Shown in pieces: positions 36,482-55,538 of a stretch of 64,000 nt of DNA. This DNA comes from Propionibacteriaceae bacterium (GTDB lineage Bacteria; Actinomycetota; Actinomycetes; Propionibacteriales; Propionibacteriaceae). The notes under the pieces were generated by a model. The model was given only the letters and a program-made list of their open reading frames with translations. It was not told where the DNA came from and made no database searches. Each line of letters opens with the position of its first letter. The first letter of the stretch is position 1. Made by a program: the position numbers and the translations under genes. The stretch lies in assembly GCA_031271975.1 (NCBI GenBank), contig JAISUR010000037.1, positions 62,001 through 126,000 of the forward strand. The letters are read 5' to 3'.

Positions 36482-36548
36482 CGCGAGAGAAACTTTCGCG
36501 GCACTTGTCGCTGCGAGGTTTCCTTTCACCTACGCGGCTCGGTAGCCT
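36482..36548 (+). promoter_or_regulatory. operator motif A and promoter for the sugar ABC permeases
   Basis: CGCGAGAGAAACTTTCGCG (36482-36500) is a near-palindrome with CGCGA/TCGCG arms. A TAGCCT -10 candidate lies at 36543-36548. The core AAACTTTCGC recurs upstream of lacI/DUF6807 and, twice in related form, before the isomerase gene, and as AAACTTTCC before the binding-protein gene. Confidence 0.5.
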
Positions 36549-36642
36549 CGTAATTGAAGGTGTTGCCAGGCGCGACATGGCTGTGCGGGACAAAGGAGCC
36601 CGTGGCTAGCCAGCATCGCGTCGAAGTTCAGAGGAGAACTGC

Positions 36643-37599
36643 ATGACTGCCCTCAGCGGAGCGCTCCCGAAGCGCAAGAGAATCCGCTACGCCCGAACAA
36701 CCGGCCGCGAAAAGATCGAAATCGCCGCGTTGGCCGGTCCGGCTGTGCTGATCTTCGTCTCTTTCGTCATCTTCCCCGTTGTCATGGCGCTGCGCTATGG
36801 CCTCTACAAATGGAAGGGCTTCGGCGAGCCCACCGACTTCGTCGGCCTGCAGAACTATGTGATCATCTTGCAGGACCCGCTCTTCCACCAGGCGCTGCTG
36901 CACAACGGCATGATCGTCGTCTTGTCGCTCCTGATGCAGGGCCCCATCGCGCTCCTGCTGGCGCTGTTGATCAACCGCAAGCTGCGTTTCCGCTCGGTTA
37001 TCCGGGTGTTGCTGTTCGTGCCGTACGTGATCTCGGAGGTCATTTCCGGCACCGGCTGGGGCCTGATGCTGCAAACTAACGGCGCGGTCGACGAACTGAT
37101 GCGCAGTATCGGCTTGGGCTGGGCGGTCCAAGAATGGCTGTCGGATCCGAAGATCGCCATCTGGTCGCTGATGGTCATCCTCACTTGGAAGTTCGTCGGC
37201 TTCTCGGTCATCTTGTTCCTGGCCGGTATGCAGGGCATTCCCGACGAGCTCTCCGAGGCCGCGCGTGTGGACGGCGCGTCGTTTTGGCAGATCCAACGGC
37301 GCATCATCTTGCCGCTGCTAGGCCCCACGATCCGGATCTGGGGCTTCTTGACCATCATCGGCTGCCTGCAAGTCTTCGACCTGGTCTACATCATTTGGGG
37401 CCAGTACATCTCCGCCACCGCGGGCACCTCCACGATGGCTACCTACATGGCCCAGAACGGCCGCCTTTCCGGCAACTTTGGTTACGGCAATGCGGTCGCA
37501 GTCGTCATCTTCCTCATCTCCATGACCGTCGCGCTGCTGTATCAGCGGTTCATTTTGAACCGAGACACAGAAGGCGCCATCACCGAGGGAGGGAAGTAG
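36643..37599 (+). CDS. carbohydrate ABC transporter permease, MalF/UgpA type
   Basis: A 318-residue permease with six membrane helices. The EAA loop is SEAARVDGASFWQIQRRIIL. An AGGAG site precedes the ATG by 7 bases. It pairs with the permease that follows 2 bases downstream. No binding protein or ATPase gene is beside it: the probable binding protein is at 54.2 kb, and the ATPase (usually a shared MsmK/UgpC type) is not in the window. Confidence 0.92.
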   Translation: MTALSGALPKRKRIRYARTTGREKIEIAALAGPAVLIFVSFVIFPVVMALRYGLYKWKGFGEPTDFVGLQNYVIILQDPLFHQALLHNGMIVVLSLLMQGPIALLLALLINRKLRFRSVIRVLLFVPYVISEVISGTGWGLMLQTNGAVDELMRSIGLGWAVQEWLSDPKIAIWSLMVILTWKFVGFSVILFLAGMQGIPDELSEAARVDGASFWQIQRRIILPLLGPTIRIWGFLTIIGCLQVFDLVYIIWGQYISATAGTSTMATYMAQNGRLSGNFGYGNAVAVVIFLISMTVALLYQRFILNRDTEGAITEGGK

Positions 37600-37601
37600 C
37601 C

Positions 37602-38474
37602 ATGGCAACGACCAAGACCGCCGCCAAACGCAAACCCTTGGTGAGCTGGGTCGAAGGCCGCCGCTTCGTGAACCCGATCATCTACCTGATCGCCATCGTC
37701 GTGGTCGCCGCAAACCTCGCCCCCGCCGCATTCATCATCGTGGGCGGATTCAAGTCCAACTCCGAGATGACCGTGGACCCGGCCGGCCTGCCCGGCGAAT
37801 GGCGCTGGTCCAACTACCTGTACGTCCTGCAAAGCTCGTCGTTCTGGCAGCAGATGGGCAACTCGCTCTTCGTCGCGGTGATCACCACGTTCGGCGTTGT
37901 CTCGCTGGGTTTGATGGCCAGCTTCGTGCTCGCGCGCTACCGCTTCCGCGGTTCCAACGCCCTGTATTCGCTGTTCGCAGCCGGGTTGATGTTCCCGCTC
38001 ACCGTGGCCATCACACCCCTGTACACGCTGGTCAAGACCCTCGGCTTGGTGAACAACCTGTGGGGCATCATCATCCCGCAGATAGCCTTCGGGCTGCCCA
38101 TGACGATCATCATCCTGGTTCCGTTCCTGCGGGCGATTCCGCGCGAAATCGAGGAGGCGGCCTTGGTGGACGGCTGTTCGCGGCTGGGATTCTTTTGGCA
38201 AATGGTGCTGCGGCTGTCCGTGCCGGGCGTCATCACAGTGGGCATCATGACGTTCGTCAACAGTTGGAACAGCTACATGCTGCCGCTGTTCATCCTGATG
38301 GACGAGGAGAACTTCACCGTGCCGCTGGGTGTGCAGAGCTTCCACTCGGCATATTCTCAGGACACCGCGATGGTGTTGGCGTACACGTCGCTGTCGATGC
38401 TTCCGGCACTGATCTTCTTCTCGCTCTTCGAACGCAGGATCGTGGGCGGATTGACCGGCGCGGTCAAGGGCTGA
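37602..38474 (+). CDS. carbohydrate ABC transporter permease, MalG/UgpE type
   Basis: A 290-residue permease with six membrane helices and an EAA loop EEAALVDGCSRLGFFWQMVL. Second half of the sugar channel with its upstream neighbour. Its last 118 bases are overlapped by the convergent lacI gene, an unusually long antisense overlap. Confidence 0.92.
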   Translation: MATTKTAAKRKPLVSWVEGRRFVNPIIYLIAIVVVAANLAPAAFIIVGGFKSNSEMTVDPAGLPGEWRWSNYLYVLQSSSFWQQMGNSLFVAVITTFGVVSLGLMASFVLARYRFRGSNALYSLFAAGLMFPLTVAITPLYTLVKTLGLVNNLWGIIIPQIAFGLPMTIIILVPFLRAIPREIEEAALVDGCSRLGFFWQMVLRLSVPGVITVGIMTFVNSWNSYMLPLFILMDEENFTVPLGVQSFHSAYSQDTAMVLAYTSLSMLPALIFFSLFERRIVGGLTGAVKG

Positions 38475-39487
38475 TCCCGCCGCGAGCGCAGGTCGCAGGG
38501 AGCGGCGGTGGAATTCCGCACCACCAGCGATGTCGCCAAGTGCAGGCGCGTGCTCAGCATTTCTTGGTTGCCGTTGATGATGTCCAGCAGGATCCGGACA
38601 GCTTGGCGGGTCATGTCTTCCAGGGGCTGGCGCACGGTGGTCAGCTTGGGGATCATCCAGTTGGCCAGCGGCGAATCGTCGAATCCGACCACCGACAGGT
38701 CGTTGGGGATGCGCAGGCCGGCCTCGTCGGCCGCCTGGTAGACGCCCAAAGCCTGCAGGTCGGAGGCGACGAACACCGCCGAAGGGCGCTTGGGCAGGCG
38801 GAAGAGGCGCTGCGCTGCCTTCCGGGCGCCCTCGATGGTGAAGTTGCCGTGGAGGATGTAGTCGGTCGGCACCGACAGCCCCGCTTGCGCCATCGCGTTG
38901 CGGAAACCGTCCAGGCGCTCCTGCGAACACGCCAGGTTCGGCGCGCCGGCGATGACGGCGATGTCTTTGTGGCCAAGCGATGCCAGGTGGTCCACCGCGG
39001 CCCGCCCGCCGTCGTAGTTGGTGGCTCCAACCACTGGTATGCCAGGTGGCGGATCGCCGATGGGGTCCACCAGGACGTACGGAATCCGCAACCGGGACAG
39101 CTCCACGTCGATGCCCGCGGAGAATCCGGACACCGCCAGGATCAGGCCGTCGGTGCGCCGTTTGACCACGCGTTCCAGCCAGACTTGGTTTCCGAGGTCG
39201 CGGCCGCGGGTGACGGTGACCGCCAGCCCGACTCCGGCCCGGGACGCTTCGGCGTAGGCGCCTTCCAACAGCAGGGTCGCCCAAGGGTTGTCGATGCACC
39301 GGATCACGATGTCGATCAGGGTCGCCGGGCGGGGAGAGGATCGCGGCTTGTAGTTTTGCTCCGCCGCCAGGCGCAGGATTTCGTCGCGTTTTTCACCGCT
39401 CACTCCGGGCCGGCCGTTCAGCACTTTGGACACGGTGCTGATGGAGACTCCGGCCGCTGCGGCGAGATCCATGAGTTTTGCAGACAT
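38357..39487 (-). CDS. LacI family transcription regulator 1
   Basis: A 376-residue repressor. The HTH is at residues 6-27 (LMDLAAAAGVSISTVSKVLN) with the hinge after it, followed by a periplasmic-binding-like sugar domain (DGLILAVSG, VVGFDDSPLANWMIP). The domain normally ends near LVVRNSTAAP; here about 35 extra residues read antisense into the permease gene. The ATG at 39487 has an AGAGGAG site 6 bases upstream. Motif A overlaps its own promoter region, so it probably represses itself and the permeases. Confidence 0.9.
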   Translation of the reverse strand: MSAKLMDLAAAAGVSISTVSKVLNGRPGVSGEKRDEILRLAAEQNYKPRSSPRPATLIDIVIRCIDNPWATLLLEGAYAEASRAGVGLAVTVTRGRDLGNQVWLERVVKRRTDGLILAVSGFSAGIDVELSRLRIPYVLVDPIGDPPPGIPVVGATNYDGGRAAVDHLASLGHKDIAVIAGAPNLACSQERLDGFRNAMAQAGLSVPTDYILHGNFTIEGARKAAQRLFRLPKRPSAVFVASDLQALGVYQAADEAGLRIPNDLSVVGFDDSPLANWMIPKLTTVRQPLEDMTRQAVRILLDIINGNQEMLSTRLHLATSLVVRNSTAAPCDLRSRRDQPLTAPVNPPTILRSKSEKKISAGSIDSDVYANTIAVS

Positions 39488-39527
39488 GGTCAACTCCTCT
39501 GTTGTGGGAAAACAGTATCAGGTCATC

Positions 39528-39587
39528 GAGAAACTTTCGCAAGCGATTGCGGGCCTGCCCAATGGGCGGTGGCAGCGCTGCTACGAT
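39528..39587. promoter_or_regulatory. operator motif A between divergent lacI 1 and DUF6807 genes
   Basis: GAGAAACTTTCGC (39528-39540) runs into a second inverted repeat CGCAAGCGATTGCG (39538-39551). A TACGAT -10 candidate for the plus-strand gene is at 39582-39587, and TACTGT on the minus strand (39511-39516) is one for lacI. One operator could therefore control both genes. Confidence 0.5.
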
Positions 39588-39607: not shown

Positions 39608-40447
39608 ATGCTGGCGCTTCAACCTGAGACGGGCAGCGTCCGCGTGGAATACCGGGGCCGGACGATCGCCCGGTATGTTTTCGATTCGCCGGCCAACCAT
39701 CCTTATTTCGACGCCGTGACCCCGCTCGAGCATGATGGCGTCCTCACTTTGGACCGGCCCTACGACCATCCCTGGCATCACGGACTTTGGTTCGCTTGGA
39801 AGTTCGCCAACGACACGTTGTTCTGGGAGAGCGCCGCGCACGACCCGGATGGTGTCGGCCCCATGCTCGGGCAGAGCCGCGCCGTGTGCACCAAGATTGT
39901 CGAAAACTCGATCCAACAGCGGCTGGCTTGGGTGGATTCACTGGGCACGGTCTTCTTGGACGAGGACCGGGTGCTGGAGTTCGGCGACGATCAAGCGGGC
40001 TGGCACATCGATTGGGCCATGGATTTCACGGCCCGCTTTCCGGTCCGGTTGCACGCGACCAAGATTGTTCCCGAAACGCCGTGGGGAGGGTATTCCGGGC
40101 TCGCCTACCGGCCGGCGCGCGCCATGAACTGCGACGAGTTGCTGGCCGCGGCGGGATCGGTGGATCCGGCGGTGATTCACGGGTCGCGGGGCTTGTGGGT
40201 AGCGTATTCGGGCCCGGTGGACGGCGGCGACGAGCCGTTCGGGAGCCCGCGGCGCGGCGGCATTCGGTTGCGGGCCAAGACGCCGACACCTATCTACGCC
40301 TACTCGGAGTCGTTTCAGAGTTGGGTGCTCATGGTGGCCCTCAGCCCGGTCATGCACGGCGATTTACACCTGGCGGCGGGGGAACACCTGCGGCTGGAGT
40401 ACCGCGTCGACGTCATTGGTTCGGCCATAACCGAGGCCCCGGTGTAA
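39608..40447 (+). CDS. DUF6807 (PmoA-like) family protein
   Basis: A 279-residue protein of the DUF6807 family (older name PmoA), recognisable by VTPLEHDGVLTLDRPYDHPW, HHGLWFAWKFAN and FWE in the first 85 residues, a His-rich conserved block. Probably a beta-sandwich; no signal peptide. Members sit in sugar-use clusters beside Gfo/Idh/MocA oxidoreductases and TIM-barrel isomerases, as here, but I know of no settled biochemical role. The ATG has an AGGAGGTG site 6 bases upstream. Its stop codon overlaps motif B of the deoC promoter. Confidence 0.83.
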   Translation: MLALQPETGSVRVEYRGRTIARYVFDSPANHPYFDAVTPLEHDGVLTLDRPYDHPWHHGLWFAWKFANDTLFWESAAHDPDGVGPMLGQSRAVCTKIVENSIQQRLAWVDSLGTVFLDEDRVLEFGDDQAGWHIDWAMDFTARFPVRLHATKIVPETPWGGYSGLAYRPARAMNCDELLAAAGSVDPAVIHGSRGLWVAYSGPVDGGDEPFGSPRRGGIRLRAKTPTPIYAYSESFQSWVLMVALSPVMHGDLHLAAGEHLRLEYRVDVIGSAITEAPV

Positions 40448-40471
40448 ACGATTCCGTTTGCGCGCTACACT
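40443..40471 (+). promoter_or_regulatory. operator motif B and deoC promoter
   Basis: TGTAAACGATTCCG (40443-40456) overlaps the -35 position of a TACACT -10 box (40466-40471). The same arrangement, motif on the -35, is seen before the aldo/keto reductase at 41292. Confidence 0.5.
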
Positions 40472-40546
40472 GCTGTACCGCAAGCCTGCGGCCGGCTCCC
40501 GCGCCAGGCGCTAGGCTTGTCGCGATCCAGTCCAAAGGAGGAAGCC

Positions 40547-41194
40547 GTGAACCGCGAAGAACTCGCCCAGATGATCGACCACACGCTGCTCAAGCCCGAG
40601 GCCACCGCCGCCGACGTCGCGGCGTTGATTGCCCAAGGGGTGGATTTGGGGGTCTACTCGGTATGCGTGTCGCCGTCGCGGCTGCCGGTTGATCCAATGG
40701 GGCTCAAAGTGGCAGCGGTGTGTGGCTTTCCCTCGGGAGCGCACGCTTCCCAGGTGAAGGCCGCGGAGGCCGCCGACGCGATTGCAAAGGGGGCCCAGGA
40801 GATCGACATGGTGATCAACCTCGGGGCGGCGAAGGATGGCGATTGGGAGCTCGTCCAGTCTGACATCGCGGCTGTCCGCGCCGCCGCTCCCAGTCCGGCG
40901 GTCCTCAAAGTCATCATCGAGTCGGCGGCGCTCACCGACGCCGAAATCGTCCTGGCTTGCCAGAGCGCCGAGGCCGCGGGCGCGGACTTCGTGAAGACGT
41001 CCACCGGATTCCACCCGGCGGGCGGCGCCAGCGTCCACGCCGTTGCCCTGATGAAGCAGACGGTGGGGGACCGCTTGCAAGTGAAGGCCTCCGGGGGCAT
41101 CCGCACCCTGGCGACGGCGTTGGAGATGGTCGGCGCCGGCGCGACCCGCCTGGGGCTTTCGGCTTCGGCGGCGATCCTGGCCGAGCTGGGATAA
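40547..41194 (+). CDS. deoC: deoxyribose-phosphate aldolase
   Basis: A 215-residue class I aldolase splitting 2-deoxyribose 5-phosphate into acetaldehyde and glyceraldehyde 3-phosphate. Schiff-base Lys150 (DFVKTSTGF), the second active-site Lys180 (LQVKASGGI) and Asp87 (EIDMVIN) are all present. The GTG at 40547 has an AAAGGAGGAAG site. In this locus it stands among sugar genes, not nucleoside genes, so its substrate may come from a sugar glycoside and not from DNA turnover; broader aldolase specificity is possible. Confidence 0.93.
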
Positions 41195-41239: not shown

Positions 41240-41270
41240 TGTAATCGTTTACGTCGAAGTGGTATAGGCT
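41240..41270 (+). promoter_or_regulatory. operator motif B and promoter for aldo/keto reductase 1
   Basis: TGTAATCGTTTACG (41240-41253) is the most symmetric copy of motif B (arms TGTAA/TTACG). It covers the -35 position of a TAGGCT (41265-41270) or TATAGG -10 box. Confidence 0.55.
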
Positions 41271-41291: not shown

Positions 41292-42164
41292 ATGGAATAC
41301 ACAACCCTGAATACTGGCGCGAAGATGCCTTACCTCGGGCTGGGGGTGTTCCAGCTGGCCGACCTGGCCGAGTGTGAGCGCGTGGTGGACGAGGCGCTGG
41401 CGGTCGGTTACCGCCTTATCGACACCGCCCAGGGATATGGCAACGAACGCGCTGTCGGGAAGGCGATCCGGGCCGCTGGACTGCCGCGCGCGGAACTTTT
41501 CGTCACCACCAAGGTGTGGGTCGCCAACAACAGCTATGAAGGCGCCAAGGCTTCCATTGGGCGATCCCTGGAACGCCTGGGGTTGGACTATCTGGACTTG
41601 CTGCTGATCCACCACCCGTTCTCCGACTACTACGGTGCCTACCGGGCGTTGCAGGAAGCCTTCCACGCGGGAACCTTGCGGGCCATCGGCGTCTCGAACT
41701 TCTATCCGGACCACCTGGCCGACCTGGTGGCGTTCAACGAGGTCGTGCCGGCCGTGAACCAGGTCGAGACCCATGTGTTTTGCCAACAGCGGGCGGCGAA
41801 GGCCCAAATGGAAGCGCTTGGGGTGCAGATCGAGGCGTGGGCGCCGTTCGCGGAGGGGCGCGACGGCTTTTTCGGCAACCCGACTTTGGCGGCGGTTGGC
41901 GCCAAGTATGCGAAGACACCCGCACAAGTCGCCCTGCGTTTCCTCATTCAATCCGGCGTTGTCGTCATCCCCAAGACCGCGCATCCGGCCCGCCTGGCGG
42001 AGAACTTCGCAGTTTTCGATTTCGCCCTCGACGCGGACGATCTGGCCGCGATTTCGGCGCTGGACACCGGGCAGCGCCTGCTCATGAACCACTACGACCC
42101 GGCGACCGTCCAGCGTTTCAAGCGTTTGGTCGAGGAGCGCAAGGACAACCCGGAAATCAACTGA
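41292..42164 (+). CDS. aldo/keto reductase 1 (2,5-diketogluconate reductase-like)
   Basis: A 290-residue (beta/alpha)8 NADPH-dependent reductase. The catalytic tetrad is visible: Asp in IDTAQGYGNE, Tyr in GYGNE, Lys in VTTKVW and His in LLIHHPF. VVIPKTAHPARLAEN is the cofactor-binding end. The family reduces keto sugars and aldehydes. The start has a GAGGAGG site. It is followed one base later by the MFS transporter gene, with which it is surely co-transcribed. Confidence 0.92.
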   Translation: MEYTTLNTGAKMPYLGLGVFQLADLAECERVVDEALAVGYRLIDTAQGYGNERAVGKAIRAAGLPRAELFVTTKVWVANNSYEGAKASIGRSLERLGLDYLDLLLIHHPFSDYYGAYRALQEAFHAGTLRAIGVSNFYPDHLADLVAFNEVVPAVNQVETHVFCQQRAAKAQMEALGVQIEAWAPFAEGRDGFFGNPTLAAVGAKYAKTPAQVALRFLIQSGVVVIPKTAHPARLAENFAVFDFALDADDLAAISALDTGQRLLMNHYDPATVQRFKRLVEERKDNPEIN

Positions 42165-42165
42165 G

Positions 42166-43374
42166 GTGCGCGCTTACGCCGAGATCCTGCGGGTGCCAGG
42201 CGCGTTGGCCTTCTGCGTGTCCGGATTCTGGGCGCGCTCCGGCGGCGCCATGATGGGCGTCGGCACGGTGCTGATGGTGTCGGGCCTGTATGGCTCCTAC
42301 GAGTTGGCGGGTCTGATCACGGCGGTCAACTCCCTGGGTTGGGCGCTGGGGACTGCGATCTTGGCCAACCTGGTCGACAAGCACGGGCAACGGAAGATCG
42401 GCTTGCCGGGCTCGATAATCTCGGGGGCCTTCATCGTGCTGCTCATCACCTTGGCCACTCTCCATGCTCCCGGCTGGACATTGGCCATACCCGCATTCTG
42501 CTCGGGCTTTTCGTCGGGTTCGCCCGGGGCGTTGGTGCGCGCCCGCTGGAGCCACGTGCTGGACTCGCTGCGCCAAGTGCACACCGCCTTTTCATTGGAA
42601 TCCGCGCTGGATGAGATTTCGATGGTGGTCGGCCCGGTGTTGGCCACGGCCCTCGCGACGATGATCGCCCCGCAAGCCGGGCTGGTGGCCGTGGTGACCA
42701 TTTGTTGCTCCGGGTCGATCGTGTTCTATTCGAAGCGCGACACCGAGCCACCGCCAGCGCCAAGGCGCCTCCGGGAAGGCGAGCGTCGCCTGCGCCGCCC
42801 GGTGCTGCTGTTGCCCGGAGTGTTCGCCGTCTTCCTGGTGACAGTGCTGGCTGGCGTGCTGAACGGCTCGATCCAGGTCACTGTGGTGGCGTCGACCGAA
42901 GCGTGGGGCGACAAGCCGCTGTCGGGGGTGGTGCTGGCTTGCTTCGCGGTTGGTTCCGGCACGGTGGGCCTCGTCTACGGCGCCATCCATTGGCGCACGC
43001 CGCTGACCAAACGCTTCCACATCCTCGTGTGCGCCATGGCCTTGGGAGCCACCACGCTGTACTTCGCACCCAACGCGCTCGTGCTGGCTGGTTGCGGTTT
43101 CCTGTGCGGCCTGGCAATCGCGCCCACCTTGATAAACGGCCAAGCGCTCGCCCAACGGCTGGTCCCGCAATCCAGGCTCACGGAGGGCCTGGCGTGGATG
43201 AGCGGCTCCCTGGGCATCGGTGGCGCCCTCGGGGCCTCGCTCGCCGGCTTCGCGGTTGAGCGCGTGGGACCCACCTACGGCTTCCTGGTGACGGTGGCGG
43301 CGGCCGTCGCGGCCGCCGCCCTCACGACAGTCTCAATAGGCCAGGTCCGCCGCGCCTTGCCCGGCCCCGACTGA
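42166..43374 (+). CDS. major facilitator superfamily transporter
   Basis: A 402-residue, twelve-helix membrane transporter. The loop 2-3 motif reads NLVDKHGQRKIGLPG, an MFS motif A variant, and a basic stretch (PAPRRLREGERRLRRP) forms the central cytoplasmic loop. The GTG at 42166 is immediately after the reductase stop; no strong ribosome site, consistent with coupling. The context suggests import or export of a sugar or its product; the substrate is unknown. Confidence 0.82.
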   Translation: MRAYAEILRVPGALAFCVSGFWARSGGAMMGVGTVLMVSGLYGSYELAGLITAVNSLGWALGTAILANLVDKHGQRKIGLPGSIISGAFIVLLITLATLHAPGWTLAIPAFCSGFSSGSPGALVRARWSHVLDSLRQVHTAFSLESALDEISMVVGPVLATALATMIAPQAGLVAVVTICCSGSIVFYSKRDTEPPPAPRRLREGERRLRRPVLLLPGVFAVFLVTVLAGVLNGSIQVTVVASTEAWGDKPLSGVVLACFAVGSGTVGLVYGAIHWRTPLTKRFHILVCAMALGATTLYFAPNALVLAGCGFLCGLAIAPTLINGQALAQRLVPQSRLTEGLAWMSGSLGIGGALGASLAGFAVERVGPTYGFLVTVAAAVAAAALTTVSIGQVRRALPGPD

Positions 43375-43404: not shown

Positions 43405-43530
43405 CCCCACCGCGACATCCCGGACTTGTTCCGGGATCAAACCCCACCGCGTCATCCCGGACTTGTTCCGGGATCAAACCCCACCGCGTCATCCCGGACT
43501 TGTTCCGGGATCTTGGGACGAAGTCCCATG
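43405..43530. repeat. 37-bp tandem repeat array of the palindromic family
   Basis: Three units start at 43405, 43442 and 43479. Each begins CCCCACCGCGTCATCC (one base differs in unit 1) and contains the palindrome ATCCCGGACTTGTTCCGGGAT. A GGGAC/GTCCC hairpin follows at 43515-43527. No spacers. It fills the left part of the 437-base gap between the MFS and isomerase genes. Confidence 0.9.
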
Positions 43531-43580: not shown

Positions 43581-43607
43581 GAAAACTTTCGCATGGAAAT
43601 CTTTCGC
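43581..43607. promoter_or_regulatory. two operator motif A copies upstream of the isomerase gene
   Basis: GAAAACTTTCGC (43581-43592) and GAAATCTTTCGC (43596-43607), 15 bases apart start to start. Each holds a GAAA/TTTC inverted pair. They lie upstream of a TAAAAT sequence (43636-43641) and of the stronger promoter at 43691. Confidence 0.5.
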
Positions 43608-46767: not shown

Positions 46768-48810
46768 TCAAGCGTGCTCAACCAGGTAAATGGCCTGCGC
46801 GGACACGGTTTCCGGCCGCAATTCGACCAGGTCGCCGAGCTGGCTGAAGGGCACCGGCGTTCCTTCGGGCAACTCGACCACGCTGCAGGCCTGGCTCGCC
46901 CGCAGCCGGATGGGGAAGCCGGCCACCGGCTGCGTCGTGTCCATGCGCGGGATGCCGCTGGAGGATCGCCGGGGTTGGTAGGCGGTCAGATGGACGGTGG
47001 TGCGTTGTTGGCCGTTGGCGGGCGGCAACCGGTGCGCGGTGGCCTCGATCCAACGCGGCCCCTCGTGCGTCAGGAGGCGTTCGGGCAGCAATCGGCCGAT
47101 CACCGCGGCGACGGTGTCTGCAGTAGCCCAGTAAGACTGTTCGGCGTACTCGCTGAACGCGGGCACGGCCAGATGCGCCCAGTCGTCTCCTACGACCACG
47201 AGCGGGCCGGCGATCGTCGCACCCACCGGGGCGTGGCCGTGCGAAGTGAAGTGGTCCCAGGTGCGGTTGAATCTGGATTCCACCACGGCGCCCAGGCAGG
47301 CCCCCATCGCTGCTTCCAGCTTGGCAGCTTGCCCATAGGTGACGTAGGCGAAGTCGGCGGCCAGCCGGGGACCGCCTTGGGCGAGTTCGCCGGGCCGGAA
47401 GAAGGACGGCTGCGTGTCGCAAGGGCCGAGCGAGCGGGCAATTTGCCCAGGCAGCGCGGGCACGGCCGTTCCGGCTGACAGCAGCTTCGCCCCAGCTTCG
47501 CGGCAGCGTTGCAGCACGGCAAGGCCGGCATCGTCCAGTTCCACATCATCGGGGACCACGATCAAGGCGTACTTGCCGGGTTCCAGGCGTTCGGCGTCGA
47601 CGATGTCGAACAGCACGGCCTGTTCGAGGAGCATTTGGGCCGCTCCGGATGTGCCCGGTGTGAAGCCTTTGAGGCGGCGCCCGGCGTCGGCGGGCACATA
47701 TCGCCAGCCGGCCACCACCGCGGCTTCCACCAACGGCGTTCCGCCCAGGTAGCCCGCCAAGGCTTCGGCCCGCTCGAAGGCCTTGCCGATGACGGCGTAC
47801 ACGGTGGGTTCCGGCACTCCGCTGGGGTCGAGTTGGTCACCCACGCAGGGAGAACCCCCCGCGGACCAGATTGTCCCAATTTCGTAGGCGAGTTGGTCGA
47901 CAGTCTTCAACCCGCCGAAATCGGCCCAAGACAGGTGGAACCGTCCGGTCATGCCGACGATGGGCAGCCCGAAGGTGCGGGCGTACCGGGCCATCACCGG
48001 GTAGTGCAGGTACCCCCATGCCCCGTCGGTGGGCAGCGACTCCACGTCGATCTGGGTCTGATAGCGGGTCGTCTTGCCCAGCCACGCGTCCGTCGTTTGG
48101 TTGTGCGCGACCGTGGCATTTGGCAGATAGCGGCGCACGATCTGCTCGGCTTGGGCGAGGAAACGGTCGCGGGCGGCGTGGTAGTAGTCCTCGACGGCTC
48201 GGTCGTCGCTCACGTCGACGCCGGCTTGCTGCATCCGCAGGACCCCCGCCGGGGAGTAGTTGGGGATGATGGAGACGATGTCGAACCAAAACCCGTCCGG
48301 CGCGTAGCGTTGGCAGATTTCTTCGACTTGCGCCAACACGTAGTCGGTGTATTCGCTCGCCAGATCCAACACACTCCAGCCGCGGCCGTGGGTGATCCCC
48401 GACTCATTGGACAACGCCGGACGGGCCAGCAGCGAGCCGTCCTTGGCTACGGCAACCCATTCGGGGTGGAGTTTGGCGGCTTCGTCGTCCCACAGCACGG
48501 TCACATACGCCTGAGCCTTGATGCCCCTGGATTGCAGCGCGGCCAACTGGGCTCCGAACAGGTCGAACGACAATCCCGGATGGACGACGCCGACTTGCGT
48601 GGGGTAGTAGGAGAAGCCGTGCAGGCACTTGGCAACTATGTTGACAGAGTTGACGTGGGCTTCGGACATAACTCGTGCGAAAGTTTCCGCATCGAATAGG
48701 TCCGCTATGGGCTGCACCGCCGCCGAATTGTGGAAGTCGAGATGAATCTGCCTCAACACAAGGCTTGCGACGGGGGATTGGGCAGGCTCGCTGGCCGGTG
48801 CGCTGGTCAT
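46768..48810 (-). CDS. GHL6-type glycoside hydrolase-like protein with beta-galactosidase-like domains
   Basis: A 680-residue protein. The N-terminal 350 residues form a TIM barrel of the hypothetical glycosyl hydrolase 6 group (LDFHNSAAVQPIADLFDAET, VAKCLHGFSYYPTQVG, DGFWFDIVS); Asp in FWFDIV and the following acidic residues are plausible catalysts. The rest resembles beta-galactosidase trimerisation and C-terminal domains (VVPDDVELDDAGLAVL). No signal peptide, so it would act on imported glycosides. Divergent from fucU across a motif B region. Exact activity unknown. Confidence 0.8.
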   Translation of the reverse strand: MTSAPASEPAQSPVASLVLRQIHLDFHNSAAVQPIADLFDAETFARVMSEAHVNSVNIVAKCLHGFSYYPTQVGVVHPGLSFDLFGAQLAALQSRGIKAQAYVTVLWDDEAAKLHPEWVAVAKDGSLLARPALSNESGITHGRGWSVLDLASEYTDYVLAQVEEICQRYAPDGFWFDIVSIIPNYSPAGVLRMQQAGVDVSDDRAVEDYYHAARDRFLAQAEQIVRRYLPNATVAHNQTTDAWLGKTTRYQTQIDVESLPTDGAWGYLHYPVMARYARTFGLPIVGMTGRFHLSWADFGGLKTVDQLAYEIGTIWSAGGSPCVGDQLDPSGVPEPTVYAVIGKAFERAEALAGYLGGTPLVEAAVVAGWRYVPADAGRRLKGFTPGTSGAAQMLLEQAVLFDIVDAERLEPGKYALIVVPDDVELDDAGLAVLQRCREAGAKLLSAGTAVPALPGQIARSLGPCDTQPSFFRPGELAQGGPRLAADFAYVTYGQAAKLEAAMGACLGAVVESRFNRTWDHFTSHGHAPVGATIAGPLVVVGDDWAHLAVPAFSEYAEQSYWATADTVAAVIGRLLPERLLTHEGPRWIEATAHRLPPANGQQRTTVHLTAYQPRRSSSGIPRMDTTQPVAGFPIRLRASQACSVVELPEGTPVPFSQLGDLVELRPETVSAQAIYLVEHA

Positions 48811-48886
48811 GTCTCAGTTCTTTCGTCTTTGATTTGGGCCTATCAGACGGTGATCCGGCCCAAATTCGACACTTGCCGATCATCGC

Positions 48887-48915
48887 GGTAACGATTACAT
48901 TGGCGCTTGTAAACT
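48887..48915. promoter_or_regulatory. operator motif B at the divergent GHL6/fucU promoters
   Basis: GGTAACGATTACA (48887-48899) and a half-site TTGTAAAC (48907-48914) overlap the -35 and -10 (TAAACT, 48910-48915) positions of the plus-strand promoter. Binding here could repress both directions. The 201-base gap has no other feature. Confidence 0.5.
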
Positions 48916-49011: not shown

Positions 49012-49458
49012 ATGCTCAAAGGAATTGATCCCGTTATCTCGCCGGACTTGCTCTACGGACTGGCCAAGATGGGCCATGGTGAGAACGTTGTCGTGGTGGA
49101 CCGCAACTATCCTCCCTTCAGCGCTGGCATCCCGGTCGTCCACCTGCCGGGTGTGGATGCGCCGACCGCGGTCAAGGCGATTTGCTCGCTGATGCCCCTG
49201 GACACATTCATCGAGTCCCCGCTGGCCGCCATGGAACCGGTCGGCGAGACCGAATTGCCCGCTGTCACCGGGGAAGTCCAAGCGGTCGCCGAGGCAGCCG
49301 ACTCACGCCCGCTGAAAGTGCGCTGGGTGGAGCGATTCGCGTTCTACGCCGAGGCGCGCAACGCCTCGTTGATGGTGTCCACAGGCGAGGCTCGCCCCTA
49401 TGGCTGTTACATCCTCACGAAGGGTGTCTGGCCGAGCTTCACGCCGCCGCAGGCATAG
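49012..49458 (+). CDS. FucU/RbsD-family sugar mutarotase
   Basis: A 148-residue RbsD/FucU protein, converting alpha and beta anomers of a pyranose or furanose before phosphorylation or isomerisation. MLKGIDPVISPDLLYGLAKM and GHGENVVVVDRNYP match FucU closely, with the catalytic His in MGHGE and the Tyr in PYGCYI near the end. A GGAG site precedes the ATG. First gene of a run with the kinase, oxidoreductase, reductase 2 and esterase. Confidence 0.9.
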   Translation: MLKGIDPVISPDLLYGLAKMGHGENVVVVDRNYPPFSAGIPVVHLPGVDAPTAVKAICSLMPLDTFIESPLAAMEPVGETELPAVTGEVQAVAEAADSRPLKVRWVERFAFYAEARNASLMVSTGEARPYGCYILTKGVWPSFTPPQA

Positions 49459-49467
49459 GCGGGCGCC

Positions 49468-50373
49468 ATGAAGGTCGCGGTAGTCGGAAGCTACGGCGCC
49501 GGGCTCACAGTCAAGAGCGCCCGGCAGCCGGTGGCAGGCGAAACGCTGTTGGGCACCGGCTTCAGCCAGGGACCCGGCGGCAAGGGCTCCAATCAAGCGG
49601 TGGCCGCCGCCCGGCTGGGCGCCGAAACGTCGTTTCTCACGGCTGTGGGCGCGGACGCGTTCGGCCAGGACGCCCTGGCGCTGTGGCAGTCCGAAGGCGT
49701 TGACGCGTCGAAAGTAGTCGTCGCCGCGGACGCGCAGACAATGGTCGCCCTGATCATGGTGGAGCCGTCCGGCGAGAACCGCATCATCGTGGTTCCAGGC
49801 GCGCTGAACTTGCTCACCCCTGCGGATGTGCGCGGTTTTCGCGCCGAGATCGCGGCTGCGGACGTGGTGGTCGTTTCGATGGAAATCCCACTGCCGCCGG
49901 TCGTCGAGGCGCTGCGCGTCGGGCGGGAAGTCGGTACCACGACCCTGCTCAACCCGGCTCCGGCCGCGGAACTTCCCGACCAGGCCTGGCCGTTGATCGA
50001 CATCGTCACGCCCAACCGCACGGAAGCCGCGATTCTGCTGGGCAAAGACCCGGACGCGGCCATCGACAGCGAACAGTTGGCGGCCGAACTGGCCCGGCGT
50101 TCTGGGGGCGCGGTGTTGCTGACCCTCGGCGGACAAGGTGCCCTGCTGTGCGAAGGCGGCGTGCTCACACCCATCCCGGCGGCACCGGTGGAGAAAGTCG
50201 TGGACACGACGGGAGCCGGGGACGCTTTTACCGGCGCCTTGGCGGTGGCGGTCGCAGAAGGCATGCCACTGGCCGCGGCCGCGGCGTTTGCCGCGAAGGC
50301 CGGCGCTCACGCTGTCACCATCGACGAGGTCATCCCCGCCCTGCCGACGCGTGCCCAATTGGAAGGAAACTGA
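49468..50373 (+). CDS. ribokinase-family (PfkB) sugar kinase
   Basis: A 301-residue PfkB kinase, phosphorylating the 5-OH of a pentose or similar sugar. GPGGKGSNQAVAAARLG near residue 35 is the substrate/lid motif, NPAPA near 167 and DTTGAGDAF (catalytic Asp252) the ATP site. Ribokinases begin GSINMD or GSINAD, where Asn and Asp hold ribose; here the segment reads GSYGAGLTV, so both are replaced by glycine. The true substrate is therefore likely to differ from ribose, for instance a deoxy or substituted sugar. Confidence 0.88.
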   Translation: MKVAVVGSYGAGLTVKSARQPVAGETLLGTGFSQGPGGKGSNQAVAAARLGAETSFLTAVGADAFGQDALALWQSEGVDASKVVVAADAQTMVALIMVEPSGENRIIVVPGALNLLTPADVRGFRAEIAAADVVVVSMEIPLPPVVEALRVGREVGTTTLLNPAPAAELPDQAWPLIDIVTPNRTEAAILLGKDPDAAIDSEQLAAELARRSGGAVLLTLGGQGALLCEGGVLTPIPAAPVEKVVDTTGAGDAFTGALAVAVAEGMPLAAAAAFAAKAGAHAVTIDEVIPALPTRAQLEGN

Positions 50374-51383
50374 TGTCATCCGAAATCGTCCGGTTCGGTG
50401 TGCTGGGGGCTTCTGCGATCGCCCAGGACAAGGTCCTGCCGGCGCTGCTGAAGGCCGGCAATGCCCGCGCTGACCTGCTGGGCACCCGAAGTCCCGCGGC
50501 GCGCAGCGAAGTCGCCGAGCGCTTCCAGATCTCGCGTGGAGCGGTGACCATGGACGAAGCCATCGCCGACGACCAACTGGACGCCATCTATGTGTCGCTG
50601 CCAAATTCGCTGCACGCCGAGTGGATCATCAAGGCGCTCCAAGCTGGCAAACCAGTGCTGTCCGACAAGCCGCTGACTGTGAGCGGGGCCGAGGCCGAAC
50701 GCGTCGCGGAAGTGTCGCGGGCCACCGGACTGCCGGTGATGGAGGGCTACATGTACCGCTTTCATCCCCAGCACCGGTACATCCGCCAGCGCATCGCGGA
50801 CGGCAGCATCGGCACGGTCCGGGAGGCGCGGGCGTTCTTCCTGTTCCACATGCTGCAGGCGGTCAGCGCGACCGACATCCGCGTCGTGGACGGGCCGGGC
50901 GCTGGAGCGTTGATGGACATGGGCTGCTACACGATTTCCGCCGTCCGCATGGTCATGGGCGGTGAGCCCATTTCCGCGACCGGCTGGCGGGTCCGCAACT
51001 CCAACGGCCTGGATGTCGGCGGCGTGGCGAATCTGCTGTTCCCGGAGGAGCGCCGGGCGCAAGTTTCCTGGGGCTGGGATACCGGCAATGGCGGCAACCT
51101 CCAGGTGATCGGCACGAAAGCCATTTTGGAGACCGGTAATCCGTTTGTCCCCGACCAAGGCAACCCGGGGGAGACGGTTGTCACCGAGTTGGCCGGGCAG
51201 GGCCGCCTCATCGAACACCGCTTCGACACGGTCGACCAGTTCCAGTTGGAGTTCGAAGAGTTCGCTGGCGCCATTATCGAAGGGCGTGAGCCGATGTGGA
51301 CAGTGGATGACGCGGTGCAGCAAGCTAAAGCCATGGATCTGGTGCGGGCGCTGCCCGCGTTGGACGAACTTGCCCGAAGCTGA
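50373..51383 (+). CDS. Gfo/Idh/MocA family oxidoreductase
   Basis: A 336-residue NAD(P)-dependent sugar oxidoreductase. The Rossmann motif is FGVLGASAIAQ (residues 7-17). The catalytic EKP is altered to SDKPLT (LSDKP near 96). YMYRFHPQH near 128 and GALMDMGCYTISAVRM near 178 are family signatures, with the His of the Lys-His pair position replaced by Tyr in GCYT. Its ATG overlaps the kinase stop by one base. It oxidises a sugar hydroxyl to a keto group or the reverse; substrate unknown. Confidence 0.9.
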   Translation: MSSEIVRFGVLGASAIAQDKVLPALLKAGNARADLLGTRSPAARSEVAERFQISRGAVTMDEAIADDQLDAIYVSLPNSLHAEWIIKALQAGKPVLSDKPLTVSGAEAERVAEVSRATGLPVMEGYMYRFHPQHRYIRQRIADGSIGTVREARAFFLFHMLQAVSATDIRVVDGPGAGALMDMGCYTISAVRMVMGGEPISATGWRVRNSNGLDVGGVANLLFPEERRAQVSWGWDTGNGGNLQVIGTKAILETGNPFVPDQGNPGETVVTELAGQGRLIEHRFDTVDQFQLEFEEFAGAIIEGREPMWTVDDAVQQAKAMDLVRALPALDELARS

Positions 51384-51393
51384 GGGGGAGCGC

Positions 51394-52386
51394 ATGAAAT
51401 ACGGCTACTTGGGGCGCAGCGGGCTCAAGGTGTCCCGCATGGTGCTGGGCACGTTCAACTTCGGCTGGTCCACGCCGAAGGAGCAGGCCTTCGAGATCAT
51501 GGACAAGGCGCTGGAGGAGGGCATCACCATCTTCGACACCGCTGATTCTTACGGCGTGTGGGCCGGCAAGGGCTATTCCGGGCTCACCGAGGAGATCATC
51601 GGCGAGTGGTTCGCGCTGGGCGGCGGCAGGCGGGAGTCGGTCGTGCTGGCGACCAAGGTGTACGAGAAGACCGACTTTCCCTACGAGGGGCTCAACGCCG
51701 AACGCGGCCTGAGTGCGTACAAGATCAAGCGCCACATCGAGGGGTCGCTGCGGCGGCTGCGCACCGACCACGTCGAGTTGTACCAGATGCACCACTACGA
51801 ATACCACGCGCCCTGGGAGGAGCTTTTCGGCGCGTTCGAGGACCTGATCTCGGCCGGCAAGGTCGTCTACCTGGGTTCGTCGAATTTCGGCGCGCGGCAT
51901 TTGGTGCGCGCGCAGGCGGTAGCGGAGCGCCGCGGATTCTTGGGCTTCGTCAGCGAGCAACACCGCTATTCGCTGGCCTGCCGGCTGCCGGAGTTGGAAT
52001 TGCTGCCCGCGTGCGAAGAGTTGGGGGTGGGGGCCATCCTCTGGTCTCCGCTTGCCAGCGGGCTGTTGGGCGGCCACGCCCTCGACGGAAAGGGTGGCGC
52101 CCGCTCGGCGGAAGCCGGGGGAGGGCTGGACGATGCGGGACGGGCCCAGGTGCTGGCCTACCACGATTTGTGCGCTTCCATCGGGCACACGCCGGCCAAC
52201 GTCGCCTTGGCTTGGACGCTGGCGAATCCGGCGGTGACCGGGCCCATCATCGGTCCGCGCACGCCGGACCAAGTGACGCAGTCGGCGAAGGCCGTTGACA
52301 TCGAATTGGATGGGGAGGTGCTGGCCAAACTTGACGAGATATTCCCCGGTCCGGGCGGTCCGGCGCCGCAGGCTTACTCCTGGTGA
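51394..52386 (+). CDS. aldo/keto reductase 2 (YghZ/potassium-channel beta-subunit-like)
   Basis: A 330-residue AKR of the group that includes YghZ and Kv-beta. The tetrad is Asp in FDTADSYG, Tyr in DSYGV, Lys in VLATKVYEK and His in YQMHHYEY; YSGLTEEIIGEW replaces the usual GxSE loop. PIIGPRTPDQV is the cofactor end. The start has a GGGGGAG site and lies 10 bases after the oxidoreductase stop, so it is in the same operon. Probably reduces a keto or aldehyde sugar; substrate unknown. Confidence 0.9.
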   Translation: MKYGYLGRSGLKVSRMVLGTFNFGWSTPKEQAFEIMDKALEEGITIFDTADSYGVWAGKGYSGLTEEIIGEWFALGGGRRESVVLATKVYEKTDFPYEGLNAERGLSAYKIKRHIEGSLRRLRTDHVELYQMHHYEYHAPWEELFGAFEDLISAGKVVYLGSSNFGARHLVRAQAVAERRGFLGFVSEQHRYSLACRLPELELLPACEELGVGAILWSPLASGLLGGHALDGKGGARSAEAGGGLDDAGRAQVLAYHDLCASIGHTPANVALAWTLANPAVTGPIIGPRTPDQVTQSAKAVDIELDGEVLAKLDEIFPGPGGPAPQAYSW

Positions 52387-52469: not shown

Positions 52470-54005
52470 ATGGATGTGGAATCTGGCCGCATTACGGCAA
52501 TGACCTGCGAAGGCGTTTATCGCGGTATTCGCTCGCGGGGTGTGGACTGCTATCTGGGTCTGCGCTACGGGCAGATTCCCGGGCGGTTCTTGCCGGCAGT
52601 GGCGCCGCACCCCCATGATGGCGTCCAGGACGCCATCGCCTTTGGCCCGCACGCCCCGCAAACCGAGGGCAAGGTCAATGCCACCGGGGAATGGGCCGAC
52701 ACGCTGGAGTACATGTACCCGCGCACCGGCAGTTGCCTGGAGGGCGGGCCGATGGATGAAGACTGCCTCTACCTCAACGTTTGGGCCCCGGCTGATCCTC
52801 CCGAGCCAGTGCCGGTGCTGGTGTGGTTGCATGGCGGCGGCTGCATGCTCGGCACTGGGGCGGAGGCCCTGTTCAACGGAGCCAACTTGGCGCGCACTGG
52901 GCGCGCCGCGGTGGTGACCTTGAACCACCGCCTCGGCTTGCTCGGCTTCCTCGACCTGGAGCGCGAGCTGGGCGGGGAATACGCCCGCTCCGGCTCGGTT
53001 GGAATCTACGACATCGTGCAGGCGTTGCGGTGGGTTCGCGACAATATCGCCGCCTTTGGGGGCGACCCGGGAAATGTGACGGTCGCCGGCCAATCTGGCG
53101 GCGGCACCAAGGTGGCCGCGCTGCTGGGCATGCCCGAGGCGCAAGGCCTTTTCCACAAGGCCGTCAACCAGTCCAGCGGTTACCCGGCGAGCGTGCCCCA
53201 GGCCGTCGCCCAGGACCGCGCCGCCGCGGCCCTGTCGCGGTGGGGCATCAGCGCGGAAGAACTGCTGGAACTCGACTGGACACGCGTAATCGAACTGCAG
53301 GAGTCGCTCCCCGAGGCCTTCGATTGGTTCGGCCCGAATTGCCACCCGCAGTTCTATCCGGCATCGGCTTTCGAGCCGGGCTCGCGGCCGTTGTCGAAAG
53401 TGCCTGTCCTGCTGGGCACGACGATGCACGAAATGTCGCTCATGCTGATCCAGACGCCGGGTTACCGCCAGGTGGCGGACTGCGACGTCCCCGGGTGGTT
53501 GGAGCGCTCCGGCGTGTCCGAACCCGTGTCATGTTTCGCGGCCTACCGGGCCCAATACCCCACCGAGCCCGCGGCGCTGCTGCTCGCGAGAATTGAAACG
53601 GAGCGATCCTTCGGCCTGTCCGCCGCACTCGCCGCCGATCACCTCGCCTCGCTCGGCCACGAGGTCTACAAGTACTACTTGGCGTTTCCCACCGACGCCA
53701 TGGGCGGGGCGCTGGGAGCTTGCCACTCGCTGTGCCTGCCCCTGGCCTTCGGCAATGCCGCGTTCTCACCGTTCGCGGGCTCCAATCCCGCGAAGGTCTC
53801 GGTCAGCAAGGCGATGTCGACCGCCTGGCTCGATTTCGTGTGCGAGGGCGTTCCGCGCCTCCCGTCGGGAGAAGCGTGGCCGCGTTATGACGCGACTGGG
53901 TCGCAGGCGCGCATAGACGAGCTGTGGAGCGTGATGCCCGCGCCGGATCCCCAGGCCGCCTTGCCGCTGGCCGCGGGGCCGATGTGGGCAAATGGCTATC
54001 GCTAA
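52470..54005 (+). CDS. type B carboxylesterase
   Basis: A 511-residue esterase of the cholinesterase-like family. The oxyanion hole is LHGGGCMLG, EDCLYLNVWAP is the family signature, and the nucleophile is Ser209 in GQSGGG, where GESAGG is usual. A Glu/Asp and the His in GACHSLCLPL complete the triad. No signal peptide, so cytoplasmic. Its place at the end of the kinase operon suggests it removes an acyl or aryl ester from an imported sugar derivative, an inference from context. Confidence 0.9.
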   Translation: MDVESGRITAMTCEGVYRGIRSRGVDCYLGLRYGQIPGRFLPAVAPHPHDGVQDAIAFGPHAPQTEGKVNATGEWADTLEYMYPRTGSCLEGGPMDEDCLYLNVWAPADPPEPVPVLVWLHGGGCMLGTGAEALFNGANLARTGRAAVVTLNHRLGLLGFLDLERELGGEYARSGSVGIYDIVQALRWVRDNIAAFGGDPGNVTVAGQSGGGTKVAALLGMPEAQGLFHKAVNQSSGYPASVPQAVAQDRAAAALSRWGISAEELLELDWTRVIELQESLPEAFDWFGPNCHPQFYPASAFEPGSRPLSKVPVLLGTTMHEMSLMLIQTPGYRQVADCDVPGWLERSGVSEPVSCFAAYRAQYPTEPAALLLARIETERSFGLSAALAADHLASLGHEVYKYYLAFPTDAMGGALGACHSLCLPLAFGNAAFSPFAGSNPAKVSVSKAMSTAWLDFVCEGVPRLPSGEAWPRYDATGSQARIDELWSVMPAPDPQAALPLAAGPMWANGYR

Positions 54006-54062
54006 ACGCAACATGTCGCGCCCCGTTGGCTTTAAACAAGGAAAATATAACAGCCTGATAAC

Positions 54063-54130
54063 GAAACTTTCCTTCGGCTTTGTTTTTGGGGCTCGCGCGT
54101 ATGTCGGTCTCAAGAGCCAGCGGCTAGGCT
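54063..54130 (+). promoter_or_regulatory. motif A-like operator and possible promoter of the sugar-binding protein gene
   Basis: GAAACTTTCC at 54063-54072 matches the core of motif A. A TAGGCT -10 candidate is at 54125-54130. A motif B half-site GTTTACA is at 54177-54183. The 210-base gap holds nothing else apart from the AAAGGAGG ribosome site. Confidence 0.4.
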
Positions 54131-54215
54131 GAAGCTACTTGTTGTAGATGGTTTTGCAGGCGCGAAGAGGACCTGTGTTTACATTCGCAAAGCCAAGGGA
54201 ATCCAAAGGAGGATC

Positions 54216-55538
54216 ATGAAACAAACAAGGCAAGGTTTATTGGCCGCAGCGGTGGTGATCGCCACCGCGGCGAGCCTCACGGCGTGTTCCGGTCCGGCGG
54301 CTACCACATCCGGTGGCGCCACTGAGGGCGGGGACGCTGCCACCGAGGTCCACATGGTGCTGTGGAACAACGAAGCCGGCGAGGCCCAGAAGTCTTGGTG
54401 GGTGGAGTCGGCCAAGCTCTTCGGCGAGGCCCATCCCGGCGTCACCATCGATGTGCAAACGGTCCAGAACGAGGATTACGACGGCAAGCTGCAGAACGCG
54501 ATGAACGCGGGAGATTCCCCTGATATCTTCCTCACGCGCGGCGGCGGCAAGATGTACGACCAGGTCAAGGCCGGCCAGGTCATGGACATGAATCCGTACA
54601 TCACCGACGAATTGCGCACCCTCATCAAGCCGGGCTACTTCGAGGCTATGTCCTATGACGGCGGGCTTTACGCCATGCCGCTCTCGGTGGTTCCCACCGG
54701 CATCTTCTACTCGAAGGACCTGTTCGCGCAGGCCGGCATCACCAGCGAGCCGACCACGCTGGCCGAGCTCAACGAGGCCGTCGTCAAGCTGAAGGCCGCC
54801 GGCATCACCCCGATCGCGGTCGGCGGCAAGGACGCCTGGCCCGCCGCCTACTGGTACTACATGTTCGTCTACCGCGAGTGCCCGATCGCCACGCTGCAGG
54901 AGAGCTTCAAGACTTATTCGTTCGAGGATGCTTGCTTCATCAAAGCCGGCGAGGACCTGATCGAATTCCGCGACACCAAGCCGTTCCAGGAGGGCTTCCT
55001 GACGACATCCGCGCAGCAGGGCGCCGGTTCTTCGGCTGGTTTGCTGGCCAACCACAAGGCCGCCATGGAGTTCATGGGGGCTTGGGAACCCGCGATTCTC
55101 CAGGGCCTGACCGCTGACGGGCAGCCCATGGCAGACCTCGGCGCGTTCCCGCTGCCGAGCGTTGAAGGGGCCGGGGGTTCGCAGACCGCGCAGATGGGCG
55201 GCGCATCCGGCTACTCCTGCTACGTCGACGCCCCGAAGGAATGCGTGGACTTCCTCGCGTTCATCGCGTCCGACCGGGATCGCCAAGTCACGCAGTACGA
55301 AGCCTTTGGCTGGCCTCCGGTGGTGCAAGAAGTCCAGGAAGAGATCGTGACGGAGGAGTACATGCTCCACCTGATCGACGGCCTCAACAAGGCTGACGCG
55401 CTGTACCTGATGCTCGACTCGATCTACGGCCAGAACGTCGGCAACGCCCTCAACCAGGGCGCCGTCGAAATCCTCGCCGGCTCCGGCACCCCGCAGTCCA
55501 TGATTGAGCTGCTGAAGGCGGCCGCCGCCAAGGAGTAA
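54216..55538 (+). CDS. carbohydrate ABC transporter substrate-binding lipoprotein, family 1
   Basis: A 440-residue extracytoplasmic sugar-binding lipoprotein. The lipobox SLTACSG puts the lipidated Cys at residue 24, followed by a Gly/Thr-rich linker. The mature protein is a family 1 sugar-binding fold ([49 protein letters not shown]). It is the likely partner of the permeases at 36.6-38.5 kb: both are the only carbohydrate-type importer parts here and both have motif A upstream. The ligand is not predictable. Confidence 0.92.

Follow-up and report, generated by a model that had tools for sequence, protein, structure and literature searches.

The stretch of 64,000 nucleotides analysed here (the window), part of contig C9 in a Propionibacteriaceae genome of 2,703,676 bases (2.70 Mb), contains a 19-kb sugar-use locus at positions 36482-55538, in which two genes for LacI-family regulators, lacI 1 and lacI 2, are interleaved with two operator-like motifs, A and B. 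Our analysis suggests that this locus is probably the join of two sugar-use modules, each of which would have kept its own LacI-family repressor and operator. The gene homologies, the genome-wide rarity of the sites and the joint appearance, in relatives, of each motif and its regulator were computed here, and from these we infer the binding, repression, effectors, substrate and direction of change set out below. A merger accompanied by an operator change at one operon is the simplest reading of these observations.

The first module would serve the uptake of xylo-oligosaccharides (XOS). Its regulator LacI 1, of the BxlR type, is predicted to bind the odd palindrome GAAA-C-TTTC and, until an XOS-type inducer arrives, to repress lacI 1 itself, the DUF6807 gene divergent from it, the pair of permease genes and, at a distance, the gene for the binding protein. 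The second would be a GH151 alpha-L-fucosidase-type cluster, comprising GHL6-lacI 2 and fucU-kinase-dehydrogenase-reductase, in which LacI 2 may bind a CG-centred operator, TGTAA(A/T)CGTTAACG, at two promoters, that of aldo/keto reductase 1 and the divergent one of GHL6/fucU; because lacI 2 follows GHL6, LacI 2 is probably also autoregulated. In the course of the merger the second module would have lost its transporter, with the XOS transporter standing in its place. The isomerase/epimerase operon, preceded by a motif B-like site in one relative (L086), carries two motif A variants in the window, suggesting an operator change whose direction we read from very few relatives.

Motif A and the proposed xylo-oligosaccharide module

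Exact copies of AAACTTTCGC number four in the whole genome and all of them fall in the locus, at 36490(+), 39531(+), 43583(+) and 48677(-), against none for the reversed control; with one mismatch allowed, the window yields 7 matches where 2.65 are expected. The palindromic core GAAANTTTC has nine exact genomic sites, four of which (36489, 39530, 48679 and 54063) lie in the locus, against an expectation of 0.063 (binomial P 3e-7). Of the five cores elsewhere, three are within open reading frames called by script and two are not, one of the latter about 240 bp upstream of an ABC binding-protein-like gene. The genome scan thus agrees with the preliminary description of this DNA, made from the sequence alone, in concentrating motif A in the locus. 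That description had also held that the motif recurs only at the promoters of the locus. All the exact copies do lie in the locus, but one that it had missed (exact copy 48677-48687, core 48679-48687) is inside the GHL6 coding sequence, starting at nucleotide 124 of the gene and covering codons E-T-F-A.

The individual promoter sites, whose cores are given without strand, largely follow the earlier assignments. A GAAACTTTC core at 36489-36497, with the exact AAACTTTCGC at 36490, stands before the two ABC permease genes (36643-37599 and 37602-38474, together 36643-38474, plus strand), and another at 39530-39538, with AAACTTTCGC at 39531, lies between lacI 1 (38357-39493, minus strand) and the divergent DUF6807 gene (39608-40447, plus strand), both as originally placed. 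The site before the gene for the ABC solute-binding protein (54216-55538, plus strand), 16 kb from the permease genes, had been described as partial; it is present at 54063-54071 with the full GAAACTTTC core, and only the trailing GC is absent. Two tandem sites, 15 bp apart (43581-43605), do precede the operon of the xylose-isomerase-like TIM-barrel gene (43812-44720) and the NAD-dependent epimerase/dehydrogenase gene (44741-45664; operon 43812-45664, plus strand), although they are of the form GAAA-NN-TTTC, with a spacer one base longer than in the main form of the motif. A looser pattern, CGAAANTTTCGC with two mismatches, was discarded as mostly background (343 and 311 sites, against 250 and 234 for the control).

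These last sites raise the question of how far the influence of LacI 1 extends. It is possible, though in our estimate doubtful, that the true operators are confined to the transporter, lacI 1 and DUF6807 promoters, and that the motif A sites before the isomerase operon and inside GHL6 are independent of LacI 1, reflecting chance or another factor. The form with a two-base spacer, to which the isomerase sites belong, has six sites genome-wide, these two included. The GHL6 site is coding, a location that accounts for under 1% of sites in the available text of a survey of LacI-family factors (PMC4052901), and GAAANTTTC is absent from the two relatives with the most similar GHL6 proteins, that is from the stretch of L086 and the 3.4-kb contig of L087 (see below). 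However, two variants so closely spaced, both containing TTTCGCA, are unlikely to have arisen by chance, and the same applies to the exact AAACTTTCGC at 43583 and that inside GHL6, given that none is found outside the locus.

A third GAAA-NN-TTTC site, GAAATCTTTC at 34921-34930 (no strand assigned), has the same ten bases as one of the isomerase sites and is situated 123 bp before an MtN3/SWEET-family gene (35054-35731), which is followed by an SDR gene; the LacI 1 regulon may, uncertainly, extend upstream of the reported locus by way of this site. Upstream of the isomerase promoter, in the interval that follows the MFS gene, there are also three 37-bp tandem copies (CCCCACCGCG[A/T]CATCCCGGACTTGTTCCGGGATC...) at 43405-43515.

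Motif A is an operator of a known kind, namely the BxlR-type odd palindrome GAAA-N-TTTC. In the available text of the respective papers, the binding site of BxlR, the xylobiose-responsive repressor of Streptomyces, is given as CGAAACTTTCG (PMC4743123), and a 2025 study places CGAANNTTTCG upstream of its BxlR homologue as well as at the two promoter regions that it tested (PMC12772271). LacI 1 is a LacI-family regulator by its Pfam LacI and Peripla_BP_3 domains, and an odd operator of the CGAA-N-TTCG type is found at its putative target promoters in the form of GAAACTTTC at 36489, 39530 and 54063. Its gene sits with those of an ABC transporter whose binding protein resembles XOS-binding proteins (PDB: 3zkk, 4c1t), being 43% identical to 3zkk (174 of 401 aligned residues), a likeness of the sequence as a whole. 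The resemblance to the BxlR regulon thus comprises the same odd palindrome core and a LacI-family regulator accompanied by an XOS-type ABC transporter; it is a resemblance of operator and gene context, the Streptomyces protein sequence being outside the comparison. Unlike that regulon, the window has no beta-xylosidase or xylose genes in the locus, with no relatives of GH3, AXE1, XylA or XylB at E 1e-20, but instead a fucosidase-type cluster, and its binding-protein gene is far removed from the permeases.

The relatives of LacI 1 supply the context that is missing in the window. Matches at E 1e-40 or better occur in 65 of 147 genomes of the same family, the window's own included, and we compared 30 loci, that is the window and 29 others, with longer stretches for 13 (12 of the 13 closest and that from the L015 genome). 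An exact GAAANTTTC is located within 400 bp upstream of lacI in 16 of these 29, whereas 500 approximate dinucleotide shuffles averaged 0.08 and never exceeded 1; among the 13 closest relatives (52-61% identity) it is present in 12. In four of the 13 longer stretches the LacI 1 relative, the motif, the binding protein and both permeases (54-72% identity) form a single cluster. A GH3 gene, which in L066 sits between LacI 1 and the binding protein, is found in 12 of the 13, and six of these also have relatives of xylA, xylB and/or AXE1; Pfam was run on 10 proteins from these stretches. In having GH3 and xylose genes alongside, the relatives of LacI 1 again resemble the Streptomyces regulon. Taken together, these patterns make LacI 1 the likely reader of motif A.

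Elsewhere in the window's genome there is one XylA match and one GH3 match. The latter, the only one at a threshold of E 1e-20 to the enzyme of the relatives, lies in L080 on contig C18, at 7162-10621, beside a paralogue of LacI 1 that is 38% identical, and no GAAANTTTC core is found across the 15 kb of that stretch.

The proposed fucosidase-type module and motif B

The GHL6 protein (46768-48810, minus strand) matches the GH151 alpha-L-fucosidase ALfuk2 (PDB: 6tvk) with an E-value of 3e-80 over query residues 19-664, and its D177, E257 and H524 align with the nucleophile, the acid/base and the inter-subunit histidine of that enzyme, as named in the available text of PMC10154630 (using a deduced offset of 29 between the numbering of the paper and that of the 6tvk chain). 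This homology, with the catalytic D, E and H aligned, identifies GHL6 as a homologue of the GH151 alpha-L-fucosidases, and it may act on alpha-L-fucosides. The protein is rare in its class, being found at E 1e-60 in only 2 of 394 genomes, one of which is the window's own. In a scan of one genome per species across at least 84,980 species, in which the best 80 of at least 548 relatives were considered, the top relatives among the matches listed come from three Bifidobacteriaceae metagenome-assembled genomes, L086, L087 and L088 (60, 59 and 55% identity), presumably from termite guts, to judge by their isolate names.

These three clusters have the same GHL6/FucU/PfkB/Gfo-Idh/aldo-keto reductase core set as the window, at 50-79% identity. 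In the window this set continues, from the divergent promoter, with the genes for a FucU/RbsD-family mutarotase (49012-49458), a PfkB kinase (49468-50373), a Gfo/Idh/MocA dehydrogenase (50370-51383) and aldo/keto reductase 2 (51394-52386), all on the plus strand within 49012-52386; the NCBIfam models for L-fucose mutarotase, the nearest for FucU, and for ribokinase match the respective genes below their cut-offs. A search of plasmids with FucU matched 347 records, every one at less than 60% identity. In both L086 and L087 a LacI 2 relative, GHL6, FucU and the kinase are arranged around the same divergent promoter, with LacI 2 (45713-46723, minus strand, its gene immediately following GHL6 there) being 55% identical to the L086 protein and 68% identical to that of L087 over the 79 residues covered. 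L086 additionally encodes the dehydrogenase, reductase 2, isomerase and epimerase, and its GHL6 is separated from lacI 2 by a further, reductase-like gene. Unlike the window, L086 and L088 carry an ABC transporter of their own, 25-28% identical to the window's genes.

The operator of this module is also shared. At the GHL6/fucU divergent promoter, the window's TGTAATCGTTACCG is matched in L086 and L087 by TGTAAACGTTAACG and TGTAATCGTTAACG, and the consensus of the two relatives, TGTAAWCGTTAACG, matches the window's genome at one mismatch or fewer in just two places, both in the locus: 41240-41253 (plus strand), before aldo/keto reductase 1 (41292-42164), and 48886-48899 (minus strand), at the GHL6/fucU promoter. 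With two mismatches allowed, a search of the window alone finds the same number, two, against 0.11 expected, and none stands before the isomerase operon. L086 has two further sites at two mismatches, one preceding the isomerase operon and one in the gap that separates lacI 2 from the reductase-like gene; at three mismatches L086 has three sites in all, one of them a source of the consensus, against 0.41 expected. The preliminary description had put motif B at three promoters. Those of aldo/keto reductase 1 and GHL6/fucU are supported, whereas the proposed site before deoC (40443-40456, plus strand) was not confirmed, as it differs from TGTAAWCGTTAACG at three positions, like about 150 others, is indistinguishable from background and overlaps the end of the DUF6807 gene. 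The placement of the motif on the -35 position, likewise from that description, was not confirmed either, since a promoter scan turned up no pair of sigma-70 hexamers where motif B occurs.

These patterns make LacI 2 the likely reader of motif B. That the motif is instead a generic LacI-type operator, for example one of catabolite control, and not specific to LacI 2, appears improbable. The palindrome of the preliminary description does have many relatives in the genome, including two near-perfect ones on contig C26 near another LacI-like gene. Against this, the consensus drawn from relatives that possess LacI 2 marks only the two locus sites within one mismatch, and in L088, which has a GntR-like gene and no LacI 2 relative in the 22 kb examined, a search for motif B gave background alone (2 sites at three mismatches, 1.2 expected). 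Within the family of the window's genome, 28 loci including the window have LacI 2-like genes; the closest (L072, 51%), of which 20 kb was read, has different surroundings and motif B sites at three mismatches only.

Two earlier forms of the motif B consensus were abandoned. The palindrome TGTAANCGNTTACA, as first written, gave 259 genomic sites at up to three mismatches and its reversed control 332, so that taken by itself it is noise; its sole perfect match falls on contig C26, where the stretch also contains another LacI-like gene. A consensus derived from the window, CGTAAACGATTACA, was circular and had eight sites outside the locus at up to two mismatches; it was replaced by that of L086 and L087. 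On contig C26 (L079), two near-perfect TGTAAGCGCTTRCA palindromes at 7359 and 7381 precede an ABC binding-protein-like gene; the stretch includes a LacI-like gene farther downstream, and this is probably a separate LacI regulon.

The L088 cluster has features of its own, seen by eye, at 9800-9830, 12147-13355 and 18540-21248, with GntR-like, enolase-superfamily-like and mannitol dehydrogenase-like genes and TTGTATGC-type repeats at two promoters. It is perhaps the same module under a different regulator, and its mannonate dehydratase-like and mannitol dehydrogenase-like genes, recognized by eye, could also suit a uronic acid route.

Merger or single pathway

The gene order given in the preliminary description is correct: two ABC permeases, lacI 1, DUF6807, deoC, aldo/keto reductase 1, an MFS transporter, the isomerase-like TIM barrel, the epimerase/dehydrogenase, lacI 2, GHL6, fucU, the PfkB kinase, the Gfo/Idh dehydrogenase, aldo/keto reductase 2, a carboxylesterase and the ABC binding protein, followed by ribosomal protein genes as judged by eye. 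The remaining coordinates are those of deoC (deoxyribose-phosphate aldolase, above the NCBIfam cut-off; 40517-41194), the MFS gene (42166-43374, adjoining reductase 1 within 41292-43374) and the carboxylesterase-family gene (52470-54005), all on the plus strand.

Both lacI genes are indeed present, and the loci of relatives support two regulators with two operators, LacI 1 with motif A and LacI 2 with motif B. Motif A, found before the permeases and the binding-protein gene, at lacI 1/DUF6807 and, as variants, at the isomerase operon, agrees with the assignment of uptake and early conversion to one regulator. For the other regulator the assignment stands for reductase 1 and for GHL6/fucU with its kinase and reductase 2, and fails for the aldolase gene, deoC. 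The single pathway under two signals that had been envisaged, with the motif A genes taking up and opening the substrate, the motif B genes completing its breakdown and both regulators sensing intermediates, strikes us as rather unlikely. In its favour, the genes form one contiguous, interleaved run with transporter genes at either end, and the isomerase operon, which in relatives belongs to the second module and here has motif A variants, would tie the halves together. However, in relatives the halves occur apart with separate transporters, and neither DeoC, DUF6807, aldo/keto reductase 1, the MFS transporter nor the esterase was found in the L086, L087 and L088 stretches examined. Since the halves are separate in relatives, as XOS-type loci on the one hand and a fucosidase/kinase/reductase cluster with its own transporter on the other, two merged modules describe the locus better.

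It is highly improbable that the motifs are mere chance occurrences or promoter elements used by neither LacI protein. Each has few sites, and a regional promoter scan gave 2 hits against 2.3 expected, but the genome-wide rarity of the motifs and their co-occurrence with the respective regulators in relatives both speak against this.

Several observations nevertheless weigh against the merger. Support for motif B comes from two window sites and two relatives; its consensus TGTAAWCGTTAACG was built without the window, but from L086 and L087 sites picked by eye for their likeness to the window's motif B, and is thus not wholly blind, and at two mismatches it has five more genomic sites, none of them in the locus. 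On the side of motif A, 13 of the 29 LacI 1-like loci, including one of the 13 closest, have no exact core within 400 bp upstream, the spacer at the isomerase sites is longer than in the main form, and L088, in which no LacI 1 relative was found, has one GAAACTTTC core, within an enolase-like gene. The inducer roles of fucose and XOS, like binding itself, are inferred. No obvious reason presents itself for coupling an XOS transporter to a fucosidase cluster, and none of four phrases concerning fucosylated xylan occurred in the papers searched, which is not proof of its absence from print. The parts of the locus are of known kinds; within the reach of the present searches, the way they are combined and the change of operator are new.

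Hinges, operator symmetry and implications

In canonical LacI proteins the hinge leucine inserts at the central CG step of the operator. LacI 2 conforms to this type, with a PNxxARxL hinge (PNLVARGL) and the CG-centred even operators TGTAATCGTTTACG and TGTAATCGTTACCG, and its hinge leucine, L54, is invariant in 22 of 22 aligned proteins (the window, L086 and 20 of the 27 other LacI 2-like loci of the family). LacI 1 and all 29 of its homologues examined have no such hinge, and its linker measures 10 residues against 15 in LacI 2, with 26 of the 29 homologues in the range of 10-13. The longest linkers (14-21 residues; L027, L029 and L030) go with no core; ten homologues with linkers of 10-13 residues also have none within 400 bp, and a tie between linker length and the core is only suggestive. 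In the available text of the survey mentioned above, 1251 of 1303 LacI-family factors have even palindromes and 4% odd ones, and by text search the word 'hinge' is absent from its main text (PMC4052901). Our literature search returned nothing to the point on odd palindromes, hinge specificity or hinge-lacking LacI proteins, which does not prove their absence from print.

These features tentatively raise the idea, toward which we lean less than away, that hinge-deleted BxlR-type repressors form a structural class that would read odd palindromes (GAAA-N-TTTC) without the leucine entering the minor groove at a central CG, as it does in canonical LacI proteins. A motif-free test, in which the best odd or even palindrome was sought in the 300 bp before each LacI gene, failed to tell the two classes apart: the 29 LacI 1-like genes gave 12 odd, 4 CG-centred even and 13 other even palindromes, and the 26 LacI 2-like genes 15, 8 and 3, respectively. 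This outcome tells against a general rule based on the hinge; what marked the LacI 1 group was the specific GAAANTTTC core alone, and the link between hinge loss and odd spacing is therefore a lead only. In another group of hinge-short LacI proteins (L016, L017, L018 and L022), a shared odd palindrome, CTGAACAAGTACTTCAG, lies upstream, with one base different in L016, and may be coding.

The locus, with a hinge-lacking and a hinge-bearing LacI protein alongside odd and even operators, would make the link between hinge and symmetry directly testable. If it were true, the hinge would furnish a sequence rule for predicting operator symmetry, and the locus would hold one member of each LacI class, with the isomerase/epimerase operon caught while exchanging a canonical operator for one of the other type. 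The merger, if right, would present a readable case of how a new catabolic locus is built, in which two modules were fused, one transporter was discarded, the operator of one operon was changed and both switches were kept, which could let a single locus respond to two sugar signals. Should the XOS transporter feed the fucosidase cluster, this would point to a fucose-type decoration on the plant oligosaccharides that are imported.

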